Assembly (NCBI GenBank): GCA_017853575.1
Contig: JAFMJI010000001.1
Span: 1 to 64,000 of the forward strand
DNA length: 64,000 bases
DNA from: Chitinophagaceae bacterium
GTDB lineage: Bacteria; Bacteroidota; Bacteroidia; Chitinophagales; Chitinophagaceae
Direction: 5' to 3'
Shown here: piece by piece, positions 18,060 to 28,225 of the stretch
Layout of the letters: every line of letters begins with the position of its first letter
Position numbering within the stretch: the first letter of the stretch is position 1
Program-made: the position numbers and the translations under genes
Notes under the pieces: model-generated
The model's database searches: none
What the model saw: only the letters and a program-made list of their open reading frames with translations
Told to the model about the DNA's origin: nothing

Positions 18060-18905
18060 ATGATTAAGGCATTTAAAAAAGACAATGAACTGCTTAAAGA
18101 CATCGCAGATGTTGATCCAAAAGATAAATATGTGCTTTTGTGGTGGTTGGGACAATCGGGGTATTTGATTCAATACAAGGGGAAAAGAATTTTAGTAGAC
18201 CCCTATCTATCAGACTCACTCACAGAAAAATACAAGGATACTGACAAGCCGCATGTTAGAATCAGCGAAAAAGTGATTGATCCGTCTAAATTGCCAACAA
18301 TCGACTTTATTACATCCAGTCATAATCATACAGATCACCTGGATGCATTCACCATCAATCCTATTTTGAAAAATTCTCTTCATTGCAAGATGATTATTCC
18401 TGAAGCGAATAGAGCATTTGTAGCTCAGAGACTAGGTATAGATCCTTCAATACCCATTGGACTTAATGCAGGAGAGCACTTCAGCATAGAGGATATTGAA
18501 TTTCATGCAATACCTGCAGCACATAATACACTTGAAAAAAACACCAAAGGAGAATATCATTACCTTGGTTATATTATTCGCTTAGGAAATTTCGTGATTT
18601 ATCACTCTGGAGATACACTATATTACGAGGGAATGGAAGAGTGGATCAACCAGTTTAATCCAACTATTGCATTGCTCCCTATCAACGGAAATGATCCAGC
18701 CAGGAAAGTTGCAGGAAATTTAAATGCTGAAGAAGCTGTGAAATTATCTAAACAGTGCAATTTTCAAATTGTAATTCCTTGCCACTATGATCTTTTTGAA
18801 TTCAATACCGCAGATGTCAATGAATTTATTCAGGCAGCAAAAAAAATAGAACAACGATTCTGTATACTTGAATTGGGAGGAAAATTTTCTTCTTGTGAAG
18901 TTTAA
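18060..18905 (+). CDS. UlaG-like metallo-beta-lactamase-fold hydrolase
   Basis: 281 residues from the ATG at 18060, two bases after the MetE-like stop; a TTG at 18054 is the alternative. The metal motif H88-N-H90-T-D92-H93 is complete, and later ligands lie in HSGD and PCHYD. Relatives include L-ascorbate-6-phosphate lactonase (UlaG) and other lactone or phosphodiester hydrolases. As last gene of the operon, opening of a sugar lactone is a plausible role, but this is inference. The stop overlaps that of aroC by four bases. Confidence 0.85.
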   Translation: MIKAFKKDNELLKDIADVDPKDKYVLLWWLGQSGYLIQYKGKRILVDPYLSDSLTEKYKDTDKPHVRISEKVIDPSKLPTIDFITSSHNHTDHLDAFTINPILKNSLHCKMIIPEANRAFVAQRLGIDPSIPIGLNAGEHFSIEDIEFHAIPAAHNTLEKNTKGEYHYLGYIIRLGNFVIYHSGDTLYYEGMEEWINQFNPTIALLPINGNDPARKVAGNLNAEEAVKLSKQCNFQIVIPCHYDLFEFNTADVNEFIQAAKKIEQRFCILELGGKFSSCEV

Positions 18906-19894
18906 AATACCCGCTTAACCAACTGCTCTCTCAACATTAAATCTACCAATACCATTGCGGTAACTGCCTCCAATACTGGTGGAACACGGAGGGCGATACA
19001 CAAATCATGACGACCTCTTACTGCAAAAGACTCGACTTGATTTGTATCCCAGTTAAGTGTTTGTTGTTCTTGTGGCGTTGAAGATGTTGGTTTGATTGCA
19101 ACTCTAAATACCAAATCATTGCTGTTTGTTATGCCGCCAACAATACCACCAGCATGGTTTGTAGAAGTTTTACCATTGATATCGACGATGGCGTCATTGT
19201 GAATAGACCCAAACATACTTGATGCGGCAAAGCCAGTTCCAAATTCAATTCCACGCACTGCAGGTATCGCAAAAACTGCATGAGAAAGCAATGATTCTAC
19301 TGAATCAAAGAATGGCTCACCCAATCCAATTGGAAGTTCATTCACCTTACACTCAACAATTCCGCCAACTGAATCTTTTGCATCAATCCCCTTTTGTAAT
19401 CCCTTTTCCAAATCCGCTTCTCCTGCAATTGAAATGACATCAGCAGATACAGTAATATTTTTTAAAATCTTTTTAGCAACTACACCTACTGCAACCAGGC
19501 AAAGTGTCAATCGTCCACTGAAATGTCCACCACCTCTAAAATCTTCAAATCCTCCATATTTTTTATGTGCTACAAAATCAGCATGTCCGGGTCTCGGCAC
19601 TGATCGCTGTTTTTCGTAGTCACCAGATCTGGTATTTTTATTTTCAAACAAGATGGTCAGAGGGGCACCAGTTGTTTTGCCATTGAATAAACCACTTTTG
19701 AATATAGGTAAATCATCCTCCTGTCGTGGAGTAGTTCCTTTTTGGGTTCCGCCTTTTCTGCGTTCAGTATCTTTTATGAAATCGTCTACTACAAGTGGCA
19801 TGCCTGCTGGACATCCATCAATCACCACACCTACGCTTTCACCATGTGATTCTCCAAAAATGCTGACTGAAAAAAGCTTTCCAAAATGATTCAT
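18902..19894 (-). CDS. aroC: Chorismate synthase
   Basis: 330 residues; it converts EPSP to chorismate using reduced FMN. The start FGKLFSVSIFGESHGESVG and PRPGHADF are typical. In place of the common RSSARET block it has GGHFSGRLT, the pattern of the shorter bacterial subgroup, which agrees with its length (usually 350-400). It is the last of the seven-gene Phe/Tyr operon, nine bases after aroA. The stop is shared with the convergent metallohydrolase gene. Confidence 0.95.
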   Translation of the reverse strand: MNHFGKLFSVSIFGESHGESVGVVIDGCPAGMPLVVDDFIKDTERRKGGTQKGTTPRQEDDLPIFKSGLFNGKTTGAPLTILFENKNTRSGDYEKQRSVPRPGHADFVAHKKYGGFEDFRGGGHFSGRLTLCLVAVGVVAKKILKNITVSADVISIAGEADLEKGLQKGIDAKDSVGGIVECKVNELPIGLGEPFFDSVESLLSHAVFAIPAVRGIEFGTGFAASSMFGSIHNDAIVDINGKTSTNHAGGIVGGITNSNDLVFRVAIKPTSSTPQEQQTLNWDTNQVESFAVRGRHDLCIALRVPPVLEAVTAMVLVDLMLREQLVKRVF

Positions 19895-19903
19895 ATGTTA
19901 AAA

Positions 19904-21181
19904 TTAATGCTCTATCACAATATGAGCTCCCAAGGTTTGTAAATCGTTATAAAATGCCGGATATGACTTATTAATGGCCTCAGCATTTTCGATCTTTACA
20001 GGTCCATCGGCCTTCAAAGCAGCAACAGCAGCAGCCATTGCAATTCTATGATCGTGATGCGAATGAACATGAGCGGCTTTCAAGCTGCTTCCGCCACGAA
20101 CAATCATCCAATCATCATCCAAATCAATGTTTACACCCAAACTTCCAAAAGTGTCTTGCAGTGTCAATGCTCGATTGCTTTCTTTGTGTGTGAGTCGTTT
20201 AGCACCTTTTATGCGGGTAATGCCTTTGCAATATGCCGCAAGTGAAACCAGAGGAGGGAATAAGTCCGGACACTCAGTTGCATCAAATTCAAAAGCATGT
20301 AATTCTGAGGGCGTAATGATATAAGTTCCATGCTGATATTTTATGATTGCCCCTGCATCGTCGATAGCCTCTAAAATTTTTTTATCTGCCTGAACGGAAT
20401 CATTTCTCATTCCGGTAATGCTGATTTCATTTGCAATCGCTCCAGAAACAAACAAAAATGCTGCTCCACTCCAATCTCCCTCAATGGTGTAAACTACATC
20501 ACGCTTATTTTGATCAGAACTGTTATTGTCAAAATAAAAATTTTCATAATTGTTATTAATGGGCGATTTCATGCCAAAGGCTTCAATCACTTTTAAGGTC
20601 ATATCAATGTATGGCTTGCTCTTAAGATCCTTTACAATTATCGTTACGTGCTGAGGATTAGAAGCCGAATAGGCCATGAGAAGCCCTGTCAAGAATTGTG
20701 AACTCAAACTTCCGTCTACCGTTATATTTGACGGCTTGAGTAGACCCTGTATTTGAAGAGGAAGTTTCCCATTATTTGATGAAATACCAATACCCAACTG
20801 AGGAAATATCTCATCGAAAAAATTCATTGGCCGATTTACCAAAGAACCAATGCCTGAGATCGTTAATGTTCTTGAACTCAATGCAGCAATGGGGGTAAAC
20901 ATGCGAATGCCTAATCCACTTTCACCGCAATTGATCTCATCGTATTTTGGGTTTACGCCATTGCTTAGAATAGTGAGTTCATCTTTCTGGTCATTGACTG
21001 TAGCGCCCAACTTTGATATTACGCCTAGTGCAGCTGCATCGTCATTGCTCCTACCCGGATCTTTGATCGTGGTTGTTCCTTGATGCAAAAGCGCAGCAGC
21101 ACAAGCACGCTGCATATCACTTTTGGAGCGCGGTGCTTTTACACTACCTGCAATACTGGATGGATGAACAACTGCAATCAT
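19904..21181 (-). CDS. aroA: 5-enolpyruvylshikimate-3-phosphate synthase
   Basis: 425 residues; it joins shikimate-3-phosphate and PEP. The N-terminal substrate loop is PRSKSDMQRA (residues 17-26) and the central GESGLGIRMFTPIAA replaces the usual GNAGT block. The C-terminal ECPDLFPPLVSLAA and HDHRIAMAAAVAAL motifs are conserved. The divergent N-terminal loops are common in Bacteroidota and may affect inhibitor sensitivity. Its start overlaps the end of aroB by four bases. Confidence 0.94.
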   Translation of the reverse strand: MIAVVHPSSIAGSVKAPRSKSDMQRACAAALLHQGTTTIKDPGRSNDDAAALGVISKLGATVNDQKDELTILSNGVNPKYDEINCGESGLGIRMFTPIAALSSRTLTISGIGSLVNRPMNFFDEIFPQLGIGISSNNGKLPLQIQGLLKPSNITVDGSLSSQFLTGLLMAYSASNPQHVTIIVKDLKSKPYIDMTLKVIEAFGMKSPINNNYENFYFDNNSSDQNKRDVVYTIEGDWSGAAFLFVSGAIANEISITGMRNDSVQADKKILEAIDDAGAIIKYQHGTYIITPSELHAFEFDATECPDLFPPLVSLAAYCKGITRIKGAKRLTHKESNRALTLQDTFGSLGVNIDLDDDWMIVRGGSSLKAAHVHSHHDHRIAMAAAVAALKADGPVKIENAEAINKSYPAFYNDLQTLGAHIVIEH

Positions 21182-22233
21182 TTACCTACCTTATTTAGAT
21201 TTGAATATGTTGACACATATTTTTCAAGTTTATCCAGTTTTATCGGGTGTATAACTCCTTTGCCAATTTTTTCCAATAGCACAAAATTCATTTTATCGCT
21301 CACCCTCTTTTTGTCCATCGTTAATATATTAAAAACACGTTCAGCATCAAACGATGCAATGGTGGGCAATTTATACTGAGATAGAACTTGGATTATTTCT
21401 ACAGACTTTTTTAGTCCAAGCATTTGTTCTGATAACCATGCAGCAAATACCATACCCAAAGCAACTGCTTGTCCATGGGTAAGCTCGTATTGTGTTTCTA
21501 ATGCATGCCCCAGTGTATGGCCGAAGTTTAATAACTTTCGATCACCTTTCTCAAACTCATCTTTTTTTACAACAGATGATTTCAACAACACATTTTTTTC
21601 AATGATGGAAGTGAGCAGTTTTTTGTCTTTCTTGATAGATTGAAGGCTGTTATTTAACAACAACTTGAAAGAAGAATGATCTAAAATACAAGCATGTTTA
21701 ATGATTTCAGCGAAACCATTAGACCATTCGATATCTGGCAACGTTTTCAAAAAACTGTAATCATACAACAAAAAAGATGGCTGACGTATACTTCCAACCA
21801 AATTCTTATACGCACCAACGTCAACTCCATTCTTTCCACCAATGGATGCATCAACCATAGCAAGCAGAGATGTTGGCACAAATCCAAATCGAATACCTCT
21901 CATGTATATGGAAGCAACGTATCCTGTTAGATCAGTCACCACACCTCCCCCAACACCAATCAAGGTTGTAGAGCGATCGGCTTCAAAACCAATCAACTGT
22001 TCAATGATTGCATCAGCAGTGAGTTGTATTTTAAATGCTTCGCCAGGCTTTAATGTGATTACATTCCAATTGCGAAATTTTGATCTATGGAGAGAAAAAA
22101 TATTTTCATCAGTGATGATAACTGCATTTTTCTTATCAACCAATTTGGAAAGATGGTTGAAAGTGCCATCTAAATAAACATCTACCGATGTATTTGAAAA
22201 TTGTTGTTTGATTTTTCTCATTGAATCAATCAT
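21178..22233 (-). CDS. aroB: 3-dehydroquinate synthase
   Basis: 351 residues; it cyclises DAHP to 3-dehydroquinate with NAD and a divalent metal. It shows the NAD motif GGGVVTDLTGYVAS, the PTSLLAMVDASIGGK block, and the metal ligands in NGFAEIIKHACI and NFGHTLGHALE. It is the fifth gene of the operon, overlapping the DAHP synthase gene by eight bases and aroA by four, so translation is probably coupled. Confidence 0.95.
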   Translation of the reverse strand: MIDSMRKIKQQFSNTSVDVYLDGTFNHLSKLVDKKNAVIITDENIFSLHRSKFRNWNVITLKPGEAFKIQLTADAIIEQLIGFEADRSTTLIGVGGGVVTDLTGYVASIYMRGIRFGFVPTSLLAMVDASIGGKNGVDVGAYKNLVGSIRQPSFLLYDYSFLKTLPDIEWSNGFAEIIKHACILDHSSFKLLLNNSLQSIKKDKKLLTSIIEKNVLLKSSVVKKDEFEKGDRKLLNFGHTLGHALETQYELTHGQAVALGMVFAAWLSEQMLGLKKSVEIIQVLSQYKLPTIASFDAERVFNILTMDKKRVSDKMNFVLLEKIGKGVIHPIKLDKLEKYVSTYSNLNKVGK

Positions 22234-23314
22234 TCATGATTTTATTCTGCCTATTGATGCTTTCCATATGAATGGCATCCATATATTTCACAACAAATTC
22301 ATCACTCAACCCAAGCTTGGATCCTTTTTTAGTTGCTTTTTCAAGTATTTCATTCCAACGTGAGGTTTGAAGAATCGTCACATTGTTGTTCTTTTTGTAT
22401 TCACCAATTTTTTCGGCAATATTCATTCTCTGGCCAATCAATTGCATCAGCTCGTCATCGATATGATTGATTTGTTCACGCAGTTTATCGAGTGCAGCAT
22501 GAAAAGAAGGTGAAGGCACATCTTCTTTTCTCCAAATAATATTATCCAACATTTCAGCCAATACTTCTGGCGTAATCTGTTGTTTTGCATCACTCCATGC
22601 ATTGTCAGGATCAATATGACTTTCAATCATCAACCCATCAAACTCAAGATCAATGGCTTTTTGAGCAGTAGACTGAAGAATATCTCTTCTTCCACAAATA
22701 TGTGATGGATCATTGATGATAGGGAGCTCGGGTAAACGGCGTTTCATTTCAATTGCCAAATGCCACATCGGAGCATTTCTGAATTCTGTATTTCCATATG
22801 CAGAGAATCCGCGGTGAATCAATCCTACTTGTTTGATGCCAGCTCTTGATATTCTTTCTACTGCACCTTGCCACAATTCAAGATCGGGATTGATAGGATT
22901 TTTAATCAACACAGGAACATTCACTCCTCTCAGTGCGTCTGCTACTTCCTGCACACTGAACGGATTCACAGTGGTTCTTGCACCAACCCAAAGCACATCA
23001 ACATCGAATGTCAAAGCATCTTCAACCTGTTTACCGGTAGCCACTTCCACCGTTGTTGGAAGTCCGGTTATTTTTTTTGCCTGTTGTAACCACGGAAGGC
23101 CCTTCGCTCCAATCCCCTCAAACATTCCAGGCTTTGTTCTTGGTTTCCAAATACCAGCACGAAGCATATCAACTTTACCTGTATTTGCCAAACGCTGTGC
23201 AGTTGCCAAGACTTGCTCTTCGGTTTCTGCACTGCATGGACCTGAAATGATTAGTGGGCGCTTGTTCCAAGCTGCCTGAACGATTGACTGATGTGTTTGC
23301 TGACTCGTTTCCAT
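22226..23314 (-). CDS. Bifunctional DAHP synthase / chorismate mutase
   Basis: 362 residues. Residues 1 to about 265 form a KDOPS-type (AroA-I-beta) DAHP synthase with IISGPCSAET, GIWKPRTKPG, RGFSAYGN and DPSHICGRRD. Residues from about 275 form an AroQ chorismate mutase (LDKLREQINHIDDEL, NVTILQTSRW). C-terminal fusion of the mutase is known in Bacteroidota such as Prevotella, where it gives prephenate feedback. It therefore catalyses both the first step of the shikimate pathway and the step towards Phe/Tyr. Confidence 0.94.
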   Translation of the reverse strand: METSQQTHQSIVQAAWNKRPLIISGPCSAETEEQVLATAQRLANTGKVDMLRAGIWKPRTKPGMFEGIGAKGLPWLQQAKKITGLPTTVEVATGKQVEDALTFDVDVLWVGARTTVNPFSVQEVADALRGVNVPVLIKNPINPDLELWQGAVERISRAGIKQVGLIHRGFSAYGNTEFRNAPMWHLAIEMKRRLPELPIINDPSHICGRRDILQSTAQKAIDLEFDGLMIESHIDPDNAWSDAKQQITPEVLAEMLDNIIWRKEDVPSPSFHAALDKLREQINHIDDELMQLIGQRMNIAEKIGEYKKNNNVTILQTSRWNEILEKATKKGSKLGLSDEFVVKYMDAIHMESINRQNKIMND

Positions 23315-23349: not shown

Positions 23350-24195
23350 TTATTGTATGATCCTACGAATTTGATTTGCATGTGAAATCAACTCCCTCAA
23401 GTATTCCCAATTATCTTTTTCTAAACAGGATTTAAACTTTCGCAGTTGACTGATATGTTCATTCAGCACATCAAGAACGTTCTCCTTGTTTTGCATCAAT
23501 ATTGGCGTCCACATATCCGGGTTGCTTTTAGCTAAACGAACAGTGCTTTCAAAACCTGCGCTCGCCATTTCAAAAATGGCATTGTCCTCCCGCTCTTTTT
23601 CTAATACAGTATTTGCAAGAGCGAATGATGTGATGTGAGAAATATGGCTCACATAAGCTGCATGCAGGTCGTGATCAACTGCATTCATTTCAAGGATGCG
23701 CATATTCAATATGTCATACATTTTTTTTACAAACGCCAAAACATCAGGATCAGATTTTTCAGTATCGCAGAGAATAACTGCCTTGTTTTCAAATGCCCCT
23801 TCAACTGCTGCAGAGGGACCGCTGTATTCAGTACCCCACATAGGATGGGTTGCGATAAATCGACCTCGATGTGGATGGTTATCAACTGCATCAGACAATG
23901 TGCTCTTGGTAGAACCCATATCCATAACTATCTGGTCTTTCACCTTATCCAATATTCCTGGCAATAAACCAACCAGTATATTCATAGGAACCGTCAGCAC
24001 AATCATATCTGCAGTTTCTACAGCCTCGTCAAGACTCAAAATTTCATCAACCAAATGAAGTGATATAGCCTGTTCAGCATGGCTGACATTGCTTTCTACT
24101 CCAATGATTTTTTCTGCAATCCCTTTTCGGCGGCATTGTAAGGCAAGGGATCCCCCTATCAAACCAACTCCTACTATTGCAATTTTATTTATCAT
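23350..24195 (-). CDS. tyrA: Prephenate dehydrogenase
   Basis: 281 residues; it oxidatively decarboxylates prephenate to 4-hydroxyphenylpyruvate for tyrosine. The Rossmann motif GVGLIGGSLAL is at residues 9-19. MGSTKS, THPMWGTEYSG and the AYVSHISHI helix are characteristic; the catalytic histidine lies in the last. No ACT or chorismate-mutase domain is fused. It overlaps the aminotransferase gene by four bases and is 35 bases from the DAHP synthase gene, the widest gap inside the operon. Confidence 0.94.
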   Translation of the reverse strand: MINKIAIVGVGLIGGSLALQCRRKGIAEKIIGVESNVSHAEQAISLHLVDEILSLDEAVETADMIVLTVPMNILVGLLPGILDKVKDQIVMDMGSTKSTLSDAVDNHPHRGRFIATHPMWGTEYSGPSAAVEGAFENKAVILCDTEKSDPDVLAFVKKMYDILNMRILEMNAVDHDLHAAYVSHISHITSFALANTVLEKEREDNAIFEMASAGFESTVRLAKSNPDMWTPILMQNKENVLDVLNEHISQLRKFKSCLEKDNWEYLRELISHANQIRRIIQ

Positions 24196-25385
24196 TTTAC
24201 ATTACTTGTTAAAGAGGTCTGTTTAATTCTTTCAATTGCTTCTTGCAACACTTCCTTTTTACTGCACAAACTAACTCGAATAAATTTTTCACCTGCAGAT
24301 CCGAATATCCCTCCAGGAGTGATGAAAACTTTGGCTTTACCTAAAATATCATCACTTATTTCAAATCCATTTGAGTATGTTGATGGAATTTTCGCCCATA
24401 CAAACATTCCTACCTGTTCTTTTGAATATTGGCATCCCAATAAATCAAGCAATTGATGTGCTTCGTTTTTTCTTGCTGCATATATTGCATTGACTTCATC
24501 ATGCCATTGCTCATCGAGAGAGAGTGCTTTCGCAGCAGCAAGCTGAACAGGCAAAAACATACCAGAATCCATATTGCTTTTGAATCGCATGATATTGTTG
24601 ATATGCTGTTGTGATGCAACAATCATTCCCACGCGCCAACCCGCCATATTATGGGACTTACTCAGAGAATTTAATTCAATGACAACTTCTTTTTGTTGAT
24701 CCAAAACAAATAAACTGCTAGGGTTATCATTTAAAATAAAACTGTATGGATTGTCATGTACGATGAGAATATCATTTGCTTTTGCAAATTCTATTACTTC
24801 TTTTAATAAAGTATTATCAGGCAACTGCCCAGTTGGCATATGGGGATAATTCAGGAAAAGCAATTTCACCTTCCCGCCATTCTGCTGATGGGAGGCTACA
24901 ATATTTTTAAGCTGGTTTACTTCCGGATGCCAATTGTTAGATTCCAGTAATTCATATGAAAGCACTTCACCACCTGAAAGTTTGACGGCAGAACTATATG
25001 TTGGATAACCGGGATTTGGCACCAAGGCTGCATCTCCTTTATCAAGATAGGTCATACAAATATGCATGATTCCCTCCTTGCTTCCAATCAAAGGGAGAAC
25101 TTCAGTTTCTGGATCTACAGTTATTTTGTACCAACTCTTGTACCAATCAGAGACTGCAGAACGCAAAATTGGAGATCCTTTGTATGATTGATAAGCGTGT
25201 GTATTTACTTTGCTCGCTTCCTGATGCAATACTTCTACAACAGATGGGTGTGGAGGAAGATCAGGACTTCCAATTCCAAGATTAATCACTTTGTGACCAG
25301 CTTTGTTCAATGCATCAATTTCTCTAAGCTTTGTAGCAAAGTAGTATTCACCTATACCATTTAAGCGACTAGAAACTTCCACCAT
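24192..25385 (-). CDS. Aminotransferase class I/II (probable aromatic)
   Basis: 397 residues of a fold-type I PLP aminotransferase. The PLP lysine is in LNSLSKSHNMAGWRVG, and NPGYPTYSSAV and LFLNYPHMPTGQ form the cofactor pocket. Position between pheA and tyrA makes it the likely enzyme that transaminates phenylpyruvate and hydroxyphenylpyruvate, though aspartate or DAP substrates are possible for this family. It is two bases from pheA. Confidence 0.9.
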   Translation of the reverse strand: MVEVSSRLNGIGEYYFATKLREIDALNKAGHKVINLGIGSPDLPPHPSVVEVLHQEASKVNTHAYQSYKGSPILRSAVSDWYKSWYKITVDPETEVLPLIGSKEGIMHICMTYLDKGDAALVPNPGYPTYSSAVKLSGGEVLSYELLESNNWHPEVNQLKNIVASHQQNGGKVKLLFLNYPHMPTGQLPDNTLLKEVIEFAKANDILIVHDNPYSFILNDNPSSLFVLDQQKEVVIELNSLSKSHNMAGWRVGMIVASQQHINNIMRFKSNMDSGMFLPVQLAAAKALSLDEQWHDEVNAIYAARKNEAHQLLDLLGCQYSKEQVGMFVWAKIPSTYSNGFEISDDILGKAKVFITPGGIFGSAGEKFIRVSLCSKKEVLQEAIERIKQTSLTSNVK

Positions 25386-25387
25386 TT

Positions 25388-26263
25388 TTATGAATTATAT
25401 TTTCCTTTTTTATAAACCCCCAATACACGGATATATTTTGTTGCACTTGCAATTTTTTTCTTCACTTGCTGAAAGTGATGAATATCATCAAATTCAAGAT
25501 CTGCATGAAAACCATAATTGAACTTGCTTCCGGCAATAGGAAAAGACTGAAGCTTGCTCAGATTGATCCCTTCCTTGGCGATGATCGTCAACACTTTTGC
25601 AAGACTTCCTTGTGAATGGTCTGTATGAAAATTAATCGATGCTTTATTGGCATTTGCCACTTCTACTTCATGCTGAGCGAGCACTAAAAACCTTGTATAG
25701 TTGTCTTTAACATCATGAATCCTTGGAGCAATCATATTTAAGTCAAATAATTCAGCAGCCAATTCACTTGCAATGGCAGCAATATGCTTGCTGTTTCGTT
25801 GATGTATATGTTTTGCACTGAGTGCAGTATCCTCTGTTTCAATCAGCTTCCATGAATATTTGTTTAGGAATCCTAGGCATTGCTGTAAAGCCATGGGATG
25901 AGAATGAACTTCTTTTATATCCTCCAACCTTACACCAGGATTAACCAATAAATTCTGATTGATTTGAAGATATACTTCACCCGCTACAAATAAATCTGAT
26001 TTTTGAAGCAGGTTGTAGTTTGGCATGATACTTCCAGCGATGGAATTTTCAATTGCCATCACACCACCTTGTGTATTTTTTTTATTGGATGCCTCTTTTA
26101 TCAAATCGACAAAAGTGGCACAAGGAAGAATTTCAACTTCGTTGCCATGAAATATCCTGGCTGCAACCTGATGGAAGCTACCCTCATAACCCTGTATCGC
26201 AACTGGCTTTACCACTCGCCCCTTGTTACTCGTCTCTGGTCCCTTTGTATTGATCCTTTTCAT
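25388..26263 (-). CDS. pheA: Prephenate dehydratase
   Basis: 291 residues; it makes phenylpyruvate from prephenate. The catalytic domain starts with VAIQGYEGSFHQVAA and contains the NYTRFLVL motif (TRF) near residue 186. A C-terminal ACT domain (about 203-285, with SQGSLAKVLTIIAKEGIN) should bind phenylalanine for feedback inhibition; its ESRP-type motif is altered to LQSFPI. There is no chorismate mutase here, since that is fused to the DAHP synthase. It is the first structural gene after the attenuator at 26275-26447. Confidence 0.94.
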   Translation of the reverse strand: MKRINTKGPETSNKGRVVKPVAIQGYEGSFHQVAARIFHGNEVEILPCATFVDLIKEASNKKNTQGGVMAIENSIAGSIMPNYNLLQKSDLFVAGEVYLQINQNLLVNPGVRLEDIKEVHSHPMALQQCLGFLNKYSWKLIETEDTALSAKHIHQRNSKHIAAIASELAAELFDLNMIAPRIHDVKDNYTRFLVLAQHEVEVANANKASINFHTDHSQGSLAKVLTIIAKEGINLSKLQSFPIAGSKFNYGFHADLEFDDIHHFQQVKKKIASATKYIRVLGVYKKGKYNS

Positions 26264-26274
26264 TTACACACATT

Positions 26275-26309
26275 AAAAAAAAAGATCCCGGTTGTTTACC
26301 GGGATCTTT
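26275..26309 (-). terminator. Attenuator terminator of the Phe/Tyr operon
   Basis: On the minus strand a perfect 12-bp stem (AAAGATCCCGGT / ACCGGGATCTTT, 26281-26309, loop AAACA) runs into nine consecutive Ts ending at 26275. This is a strong intrinsic terminator placed 11 bases before the pheA start. It therefore can only act on transcripts about to enter the operon. The competing antiterminator is described at 26298-26356. Confidence 0.93.
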
Positions 26310-26372
26310 ATGTTGAGTTATTTTTTCTTTTTTGGTATCAACAATGAGCTCCCGGTCTACTTGTAAAGTAGA
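26298..26372 (-). promoter_or_regulatory. Antiterminator and pause hairpin of the attenuator
   Basis: ACCGGGA inside the leader-peptide reading frame (26350-26356) is complementary to TCCCGGT of the terminator's 5' arm (26298-26304), so the two folds exclude each other. Just upstream a 7-bp hairpin TCTACTT-TAC-AAGTAGA (26356-26372) covers the last Tyr/Phe codons and adjoins the antiterminator strand. A ribosome stalled at the Tyr/Phe codons would melt this hairpin, free the antiterminator strand and allow read-through. Confidence 0.8.
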
Positions 26373-26412
26373 AATAAAAATAAAAAGAGTACCAGTTGCT
26401 TCTTGTTGACAT
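26338..26412 (-). CDS. Phe/Tyr leader peptide of the attenuator
   Basis: A 24-codon reading frame from ATG (26412) to TGA (26338) that is too short for usual gene finders. Its core reads WYSFYFYFYF: four Tyr and four Phe codons within ten residues, preceded by MSTRSN and followed by TSRPGAHC. Such a run is the classic sensor of charged tRNA-Phe and tRNA-Tyr in attenuation. The single Trp could add a third input. The ATG is only four bases past a TATATTTG promoter box, so the mRNA may be leaderless. Confidence 0.92.
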   Translation of the reverse strand: MSTRSNWYSFYFYFYFTSRPGAHC

Positions 26413-26416
26413 GTGA

Positions 26417-26447
26417 CAAATATAAGATAATTGGAAAATTAAACAAA
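26417..26447 (-). promoter_or_regulatory. Promoter of the Phe/Tyr operon leader
   Basis: On the minus strand TTTG (26444-26447), a 19-base spacer and TATATTTG (26417-26424) match the Bacteroidota consensus TTTG/TAnnTTTG at normal spacing. It lies wholly in the gap between the helicase stop and the leader peptide ATG. Confidence 0.85.
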
Positions 26448-26451
26448 AATC

Positions 26452-28113
26452 TTAAAATCTTTTTCTAGGACCGCCGCTGTCAGCGTCGTTCATACGAATT
26501 TTTCTGCCTTTGAACTTCTTCCCGTCGATGGATCGCATCATTTGATTGGCTGCACTGCTTTCGATTTCCACCCAACTGTTCATTTCTTTCATATCAATTT
26601 TTCCAAGTACATCCTTGTTAAGATCACTCATATCTAAAATAAACTGAAGGAAACTTGCCTTGTAGAAGCCGTCTTTTGTACCAAGATTGATAAAAAGTTT
26701 CTTATAACCACTGTTTGATATAGGTCTACTACTAGGGGATCCAGATAATTTTTCTCTCTTCTGAACGCTTCGATCAGATTTTCTGTCATCTCTGACATTG
26801 AGATCAGCTGCATTCTCATAATACTGAAGGAACCTGTCGAATTCCAATGCAGCAACTCGTTGAAGAATTTCTTCTTTTTCCATATGAGCAAACTTCTCTC
26901 TAAGAAGAGGAACATAGGTTTCATATTCTCCATGACTGATATCTGCCATGAACATTTTATCAATAAAATGAAAAAATTGTTTTCTGCAAACATCTTTGCC
27001 AGATGGGATATCCAGCTTATGAAATTTATTATTTATCAACCTCTCGATTTGACGAAGGCGATATACTTCTCTTTGTGTAACCAATGAAATACAAACGCCG
27101 CTGTTTCCTGCCCTTCCGGTTCTGCCGCTTCGATGCGTGTAAACTTCAGGATCATCCGGTAATTCATAATTAATGACATGGGTGATGCCCTGTACATCTA
27201 TTCCACGTGCCGCAACATCTGTTGCAATCAACAACTGTAGGCTCTTTTCTCTGAATCTCGCCATTACCTTGTCGCGTTGTTGTTGTGTAAGATCTCCATG
27301 CAATGCTTCGATATCATAACCTTCTCTGATGAGTGATTCAGTTATATGTTGAGCATCTGCCTTGGTTCTTGTAAACACAATTCCATACATACCGGGATTA
27401 AAATCAATGATTCTCTTTAATGTGTGATATCTGTTAACACCTGATGTAACATAAAATTGATGATCAATATTTACGTTGGCAGCATTCACTTTGCCAATGG
27501 TAATTTCTGCAGGCTGCTGCATGAAACGTTTGCTTACCTGGCGAACCTCATTGGGCATGGTTGCGCTGAACAACCAAATACTATTTCTATTGGGTGTATT
27601 TCCCAGTATAAATTCAATATCTTCTCGGAATCCCATGTTCAGCATTTCGTCTGCCTCATCCAAAACGATGTAAGAAATGTTTTGCAGATTAATTGCCTTT
27701 CGCTCGATTAAGTCAATCAACCGACCGGGTGTAGCCACCACTATTTGAATACCTTGTTTGAGTTCACGAATTTGCTGGCCAATGGAGGCACCGCCATATA
27801 CGGCAACCGACTTAATTGACCTTTTATTTACCGAGAAATTGGTGATGTCTTTGGTGATTTGTACGCAAAGCTCACGTGTAGGGCAAACGACGAGGGCCTG
27901 GGGGGATCTGACGTTTCCATCTACTAATTGTAACAGTGGCAGACCAAATGCGGCTGTTTTTCCAGTACCCGTCTGGGCGAGTCCGACAAAATCTTTTGTT
28001 CCACTAAGGAGTATGGGAATTGCTTTTTCCTGTATTGGGGTAGGGTTAACGAACCCAAGTGACTGAATGCCTGATAGTAACGACGCTTCAATACCTAACG
28101 CTTCAAAACTCAT
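26452..28113 (-). CDS. DEAD-box RNA helicase with DbpA-type C-terminal domain
   Basis: 553 residues. The helicase core has Walker A GTGKT at 49-53, PTRELC, ATPGR, DEAD at 153-156, FSATMP and HRSGRTGRAG. A basic linker follows (about 435-465) and the last 85 residues form a DbpA/CsdA-like RNA-binding domain (KKLFINLGTKDGF). Such enzymes act in ribosome assembly or cold adaptation. It is transcribed toward the aromatic operon but that operon has its own promoter. Confidence 0.94.
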   Translation of the reverse strand: MSFEALGIEASLLSGIQSLGFVNPTPIQEKAIPILLSGTKDFVGLAQTGTGKTAAFGLPLLQLVDGNVRSPQALVVCPTRELCVQITKDITNFSVNKRSIKSVAVYGGASIGQQIRELKQGIQIVVATPGRLIDLIERKAINLQNISYIVLDEADEMLNMGFREDIEFILGNTPNRNSIWLFSATMPNEVRQVSKRFMQQPAEITIGKVNAANVNIDHQFYVTSGVNRYHTLKRIIDFNPGMYGIVFTRTKADAQHITESLIREGYDIEALHGDLTQQQRDKVMARFREKSLQLLIATDVAARGIDVQGITHVINYELPDDPEVYTHRSGRTGRAGNSGVCISLVTQREVYRLRQIERLINNKFHKLDIPSGKDVCRKQFFHFIDKMFMADISHGEYETYVPLLREKFAHMEKEEILQRVAALEFDRFLQYYENAADLNVRDDRKSDRSVQKREKLSGSPSSRPISNSGYKKLFINLGTKDGFYKASFLQFILDMSDLNKDVLGKIDMKEMNSWVEIESSAANQMMRSIDGKKFKGRKIRMNDADSGGPRKRF

Positions 28114-28192: not shown

Positions 28193-28225
28193 AAAAAAGT
28201 CATCCCGTGGAAACGGGACGACTTC
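28193..28225 (-). terminator. Intrinsic terminator after the small lipoprotein gene
   Basis: On the minus strand AAGTCGTCCCGT and ACGGGATGACTT form a 12-bp stem (one G-U pair in RNA, loop TTCC) followed by a T-run ending at 28193. It lies 27 bases after the lipoprotein stop and separates that gene from the helicase. Confidence 0.9.

Follow-up and report, generated by a model that had tools for sequence, protein, structure and literature searches.

A Candidate Phe/Tyr Leader-Peptide Attenuator before a Seven-Gene Aromatic Operon in Chitinophagaceae and Its Conservation across Bacteroidia

RESULTS

Aromatic operon and pheA leader region

The window analyzed here is a 64,000-nucleotide stretch of a Chitinophagaceae bacterium genome (assembly GCA_017853575.1, contig JAFMJI010000001.1, positions 1 to 64,000 of the forward strand). 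Comparison to Pfam and NCBIfam confirmed the seven-gene aromatic operon named in a preliminary description of this DNA. The seven genes, which begin with pheA, overlap or are separated by gaps of ~35 nt or less (Table 1). All evidence for an attenuator in the pheA leader is computational.

When the minus strand upstream of pheA was reread, every coordinate given for the leader parts in the preliminary description was correct, and the promoter (TTTG-N19-TATATTTG) and the 24-codon Phe/Tyr leader open reading frame (ORF) 4 nt downstream of it were both present. The -7 box, TATATTTG, fits the TAnnTTTG pattern of the Bacteroidota primary sigma factor; 19 nt separate it from the possible -33 element, and TCAC lies between the box and the leader ATG (26412 to 26410). 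The leader ORF is predicted to encode MSTRSNWYSFYFYFYFTSRPGAHC*, with seven Phe/Tyr codons in a row and one further Tyr codon. Beginning 8 nt past the last Phe codon is strand 2, ACCGGGA, whose complementarity to the 5' arm of a 12-bp terminator with nine Ts was also borne out. The terminator reads AAAGATCCCGGT-AAACA-ACCGGGATCTTT (26309 to 26281), with three of the nine Ts within the stem. In the predicted fold, GTTGA and TCAAC form a second short antiterminator helix.

Table 1. Features of the aromatic operon and its leader in the window
Feature	Coordinates	Strand	Basis
pheA, prephenate dehydratase, first gene of the operon	25388..26263	-	Pfam PDT and ACT
Class I/II aminotransferase	24192..25385	-	Pfam PF00155
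tyrA, prephenate dehydrogenase	23350..24195	-	NCBIfam NF006307, above cut-off
DAHP synthase fused to chorismate mutase	22226..23314	-	Pfam PF00793 and PF01817
aroB, 3-dehydroquinate synthase	21178..22233	-	TIGR01357, above cut-off
aroA, EPSP synthase	19904..21181	-	TIGR01356, above cut-off
aroC, chorismate synthase	18902..19894	-	TIGR00033, above cut-off
Possible -33 TTTG element	26444..26447	-	Sequence only
-7 promoter box	26417..26424	-	Sequence
Leader ORF, 24 codons and stop, predicted leaderless	26338..26412	-	Sequence, conservation
Small hairpin TCTACTT-TAC-AAGTAGA over the last Phe/Tyr codons	26356..26372	-	Fold and RNAalifold consensus of 39 relatives; putative role
Strand 2, ACCGGGA, antiterminator 5' side, within the leader ORF	26350..26356	-	Complementary to 26298-26304
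GTTGA overlapping the leader stop codon	26338..26342	-	Fold; columns near-invariant in 39 relatives; putative role
TCAAC, partner of GTTGA, before the terminator	26312..26316	-	Fold; near-invariant columns
Strand 3, terminator 5' arm	26298..26309	-	Fold
Strand 4, terminator 3' arm, leading into the T tract (to 26275)	26281..26292	-	Fold

The 140-nt leader had a folding energy of -42.6 kcal/mol, compared to -19.7 kcal/mol in shuffled sequences (z = -6.6; 0/200 as good). The terminator hairpin alone (-18.7 kcal/mol, z = -5.6) and the conformation in which strand 2 pairs with strand 3 beside the small hairpin (-22.5 kcal/mol, z = -5.7) were likewise stable. A covariance model trained on 39 Chitinophagaceae members detected the element in a single copy in the genome of origin. 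Another strong terminator-like hairpin is located on the minus strand at 28196-28225 of the window, upstream of the helicase gene that precedes the pheA leader.

Conservation of the leader across Bacteroidia

A search for PheA in 101 relatives and 296 genomes of the class yielded 139 usable upstream regions, which were interrogated for short ORFs in which an ATG was followed by a Phe/Tyr cluster (6 or more in 12 residues). Such ORFs were found in 104 of the 139 Bacteroidia regions, compared to 19 of 973 dinucleotide shuffles (2%) and none of 114 correctly oriented regions upstream of hisG, ilvD, trpE, and aspartokinase genes. Within Chitinophagaceae, the leader was present at essentially every locus with enough upstream sequence; among other families it was found in f59 (10/10), f73 (9/9), f53, f23, f19, f56, f36, and others. 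Among the 139 regions it was absent from family f33 (0/8 genomes) and from some singletons. A terminator followed the leader at 102 of 105 loci, and by eye also at 2 of the 3 misses. The preliminary description had named relatives missing a Tyr/Phe-rich frame or the complementary antiterminator as grounds for refutation; the attenuator proposal survived this check, with leader and terminator together at the 102 loci in 19 families. The covariance model additionally identified 14 genera outside its training set with a Phe/Tyr leader before pheA.

Both Phe and Tyr were encoded in all 102 leaders with a terminator (means of 4.8 Phe and 3.8 Tyr). At codons 10 to 16 in 39 Chitinophagaceae relatives, 262 of 273 codons specified Phe or Tyr; the third position was T or C in 272 and the first position was T in 264, while the second position alternated between T and A, exchanging Phe for Tyr. 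This pattern is the one predicted by selection in which either Phe or Tyr will do. A Trp codon occurred in just 21 of the 102 leaders overall and in 5 of 50 in Chitinophagaceae, four of these belonging to the closest kin of the window's organism; the earlier suggestion that Trp might serve as a third input was therefore rejected.

The same comparisons bear on what else the element might be. The hairpin could be the 3' terminator of the DEAD-box helicase gene upstream, with the short ORF a chance reading of its 3' untranslated region (UTR): this gene lies on the same strand, ends at 26452, 40 nt upstream of the leader ATG, and precedes the leader in 36 relatives. However, leader and terminator were retained under a different upstream gene at 66 loci (14 in Chitinophagaceae), and for this reason the helicase reading, which we consider highly improbable, was rejected; moreover, an exact promoter box precedes the leader ORF, which varies between genomes in a codon-like manner. 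A long structured leader with terminator and antiterminator ahead of an amino acid operon is equally what a T-box or another small-RNA or ligand switch would look like, with the peptide incidental to amino acid sensing. Yet Rfam gave no T-box or riboswitch match for the window or for 20 leader loci, and the conserved part is the Phe/Tyr coding run, with T or C at third positions as the codons demand, making a switch of this kind very unlikely.

Two Phe/Tyr leaders in series, each with its own terminator, were observed upstream of pheA at six loci (L055, L062, L075, L077, L121, and L137) in five families. Tandem leader attenuators are described for Salmonella mgtCBR (PMC3641672).

Matching of antiterminator and terminator

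Pairing energies were computed between each terminator 5' arm and the leader end of the same genome or of other genomes. When each family contributed a single locus (n = 19), own pairs averaged -12.14 kcal/mol and swapped pairs -8.19 kcal/mol, and none of 2,000 permutations was as good; within family f73 alone, the values were -10.1 and -5.9 kcal/mol. Compared to shuffled arms, the antiterminator was better than 95% of shuffles at 82 of 102 loci. Complementarity was retained in diverged pairs, such as CAGGATTG/AATCCTG, GAGGCTTT/AAAGCCTC, and TGAAGCGGGA/TCCCGCTTC. Antiterminator pairing is genome specific and changes together with the terminator arm across families.

The preliminary description had called for an alignment of pheA upstream regions; this supported conservation of the Tyr/Phe codons, but covariation of the stems was undetectable within Chitinophagaceae (76.9% paired versus 77.2% in shuffles) because the core CGGGA:TCCCG is nearly invariant there. 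Support for the antiterminator therefore comes from the between-family comparison. The swap difference inside Chitinophagaceae (-13.6 for own versus -12.5 for swapped pairs) could reflect shared ancestry and so carries no weight in the argument.

A role in trans, instead of or besides cis attenuation, is conceivable for the leader peptide or for the leader RNA released at the terminator. The terminated leader would be an RNA of ~130 to 140 nt with a stable hairpin end, and Sinorhizobium meliloti rnTrpL, an RNA that likewise begins with the start codon of its leader ORF, acts in trans (PMC7298713). Since cis attenuation alone explains the matched changes in antiterminator and terminator, we regard a trans-acting product as unlikely.

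Ribosome position and the proposed mechanism

Masking of strand 2 by a ribosome was calculated for the window leader under the assumption that the footprint edge lies 10 nt beyond the A-site codon. For a ribosome whose A site is no further along than Tyr-15, the full set of 7 strand-2 pairs is available ahead of strand 4 synthesis. An A site at Phe-16 is compatible with 5 pairs and one at codon 17 with 2; no pair is possible once codon 18 or any later codon, the stop included, is reached. This boundary coincides with the end of the Phe/Tyr run. Across the class, the strand-2 helix starts 7 to 14 nt after the Phe/Tyr cluster at 94 of 102 loci, compared to 36% with shuffled arms. The terminator is favored at equilibrium in every stalled state of the window leader, and the decision must therefore be kinetic.

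The leader ORF, the terminator, the mutually exclusive antiterminator, and the ribosome-position geometry of classical attenuation are all present, in support of the reading given in the preliminary description. From these parts, their conservation, and the matched changes between families, we infer with a probability of about 0.9 that the pheA leader controls the seven-gene operon by ribosome-mediated transcription attenuation, with charged tRNA-Phe and tRNA-Tyr sensed together. Transcription would begin at the leader AUG or within ~1 base of it, as judged from the box spacing, so that the ribosome would begin at the 5' end of the nascent RNA. When Phe and Tyr are plentiful, the translating ribosome would pass the Phe/Tyr codons to the stop and cover ACCGGGA, whereupon the 12-bp terminator would fold and RNA polymerase would leave before pheA. 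When Phe or Tyr is short, the ribosome would stall on the run and ACCGGGA would remain free; paired with the terminator 5' arm, it would allow the polymerase to continue into the operon, giving the expected response to starvation.

A protector stem had also been proposed. It is predicted in the window, but across relatives it is weakly above shuffles, with strand-2 pairing in the absence of strand 3 at 0.69 across Chitinophagaceae compared to 0.62 in shuffled sequences. We speculate that constant ribosome loading at the 5' end, if it occurs, might make such a stem unnecessary.

Position of the promoter box relative to the leader start

The primary -7 box of Flavobacterium psychrophilum is described as spanning -12 to -5 (PMC9723704), and by this spacing a box 4 nt before the ATG puts the predicted start on the A of the ATG, at 26412. 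An exact TAnnTTTG was found 3 to 9 nt before the leader ATG at 43 of 50 Chitinophagaceae loci, with modes at 4 and 5 nt, and at 3 of 52 loci in other families, where most boxes were 15 to 35 nt away or not found. Among the 14 new genera, the box was within 9 nt in 10, in one of these with one mismatch. The earlier suggestion of a leaderless leader is thus strongly supported within Chitinophagaceae but not in other families; in Chitinophagaceae, the mRNA apparently starts at the leader ORF, as predicted from promoter spacing. One Chitinophagaceae locus upstream of pheA (L073) seemed at first to be without the leader, but by eye the leader appeared to start with GTG, 4 nt after TACATTTG; a leaderless start at a non-ATG codon would be unusual.

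As a control, 207 genes preceded by an intergenic region were examined in a complete Chitinophagaceae relative, and 16 had a box at a distance of ≤9 nt. These represented 46% of the 35 genes with any exact box, and leaderless genes are therefore not rare in Chitinophagaceae. A leaderless start unique to the leaders was ruled out by these ordinary genes, although the leaders were significantly enriched for close boxes (Fisher test, P = 2e-6). Over 400 kb of a complete Chitinophagaceae genome (L280-L299), box-to-start spacing looked bimodal, sharp at 3 to 6 nt and broad from 14 nt, with the first ATG taken as the start codon, a possible bias; this distribution suggests a sizeable class of leaderless mRNAs.

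Other candidate leaders in Chitinophagaceae

Regions upstream of other amino acid genes contained runs of the corresponding residues in candidate leader peptides. HHHH runs were observed before hisG at 25 of 26 loci (L148-L173), WWW runs before trpE at ~23 of 28 (L204-L231), IIVVVVII runs before ilvD at ~8 of 30 (L174-L203), and TTTT runs before aspartokinase genes at ~11 of 30 (L232-L261). In the genome that contains the window, the sequence before hisG was MSVFLNKHHHHISPKR, with a box 4 nt ahead of the ATG; a Trp-rich leader before trpE was not found in this genome (L226), though most Chitinophagaceae have one. The box was within 10 nt of the start for 17 of 23 Trp leaders and 18 of 25 His leaders, compared to 0 of 8 Ile/Val leaders and 1 of 9 Thr leaders.

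DISCUSSION

Escherichia coli pheL contains Phe codons only, whereas the leader in the window mixes Phe and Tyr codons and is likely leaderless. The two systems are alike in having a short leader ORF rich in regulatory codons, a terminator before pheA, and an antiterminator formed by the end of the leader region. The window's candidate attenuator differs in its reach, which takes in seven genes, among them tyrA and those of the common pathway. Against the Rfam models, the window scored 31.3 bits for Phe_leader (RF01859, the E. coli pheL/pheA element; E = 0.0049), below the cut-off of 55, and 27.2 bits for His_leader (RF00514), below the cut-off of 49.

The S. meliloti trpL leader is also a ribosome-mediated attenuator, and the leader-ORF AUG forms the 5' end of its RNA (PMC7298713); it concerns another phylum and amino acid, and the leaderless start predicted here extends across an entire family and three leader types. 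A survey in 2010 was aware of no demonstrated leader-peptide system beyond Proteobacteria and Actinobacteria until it added its own cases from Firmicutes (PMC2965389). The preliminary description called attenuation less documented in Bacteroidota, which is a fair statement. Hints do exist. The F. psychrophilum transcriptome gave "strong clues" of leader-peptide attenuation of amino acid operons (PMC9723704), and short ORFs within long 5' UTRs are described for Bacteroides thetaiotaomicron (PMC7366714). These candidates belong to the same phylum as the window; the sections of the two reports considered here name no Phe/Tyr element and give leaderless mRNAs or 5' UTRs of <10 nt as just 5.5% and 3.7% of mRNAs. 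The Bacteroid-trp RNA (RF01692) is similarly a candidate cis-regulatory RNA of Bacteroidetes (PMC2864571), but neither the window nor any of 20 leader loci, three of which were of the Trp type, matched it at the cut-off. No description of the Phe/Tyr element was found in the literature; older surveys (Vitreschak 2004; Lopatovskaya 2010) may include related predictions. Dual Phe/Tyr sensing over a whole pathway, a family-wide leaderless leader, and the spread of the element through Bacteroidia are apparently undescribed.

The mechanism of the pheA leader is classical attenuation. To this are added a single switch that reads two amino acids for the entire aromatic pathway and leader ORFs with which the RNA apparently starts. 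The chances seem to us evenly balanced that leaderless leader-peptide attenuators of the Phe/Tyr and Trp types, and largely of the His type, operate throughout Chitinophagaceae, with the ribosome loading at the 5'-terminal AUG as this AUG exits RNA polymerase, and that other Bacteroidia use the Phe/Tyr attenuator from a conventional 5' UTR, with two in series in a few lineages. If this is true, leaderless loading may explain the scant conservation of the protector stem.

Leader-peptide attenuation requires a ribosome close behind RNA polymerase. To our knowledge, transcription-translation coupling has been little tested in Bacteroidota, which are without Shine-Dalgarno signals. Phe/Tyr leaders in most of the Bacteroidia pheA regions examined, together with the Trp, His, Ile/Val, and Thr leaders in Chitinophagaceae, predict such coupling, and the leader elements supply ready-made reporters of it. 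A leaderless attenuator set, if true, would imply that transcription and translation are tightly coupled in this phylum.
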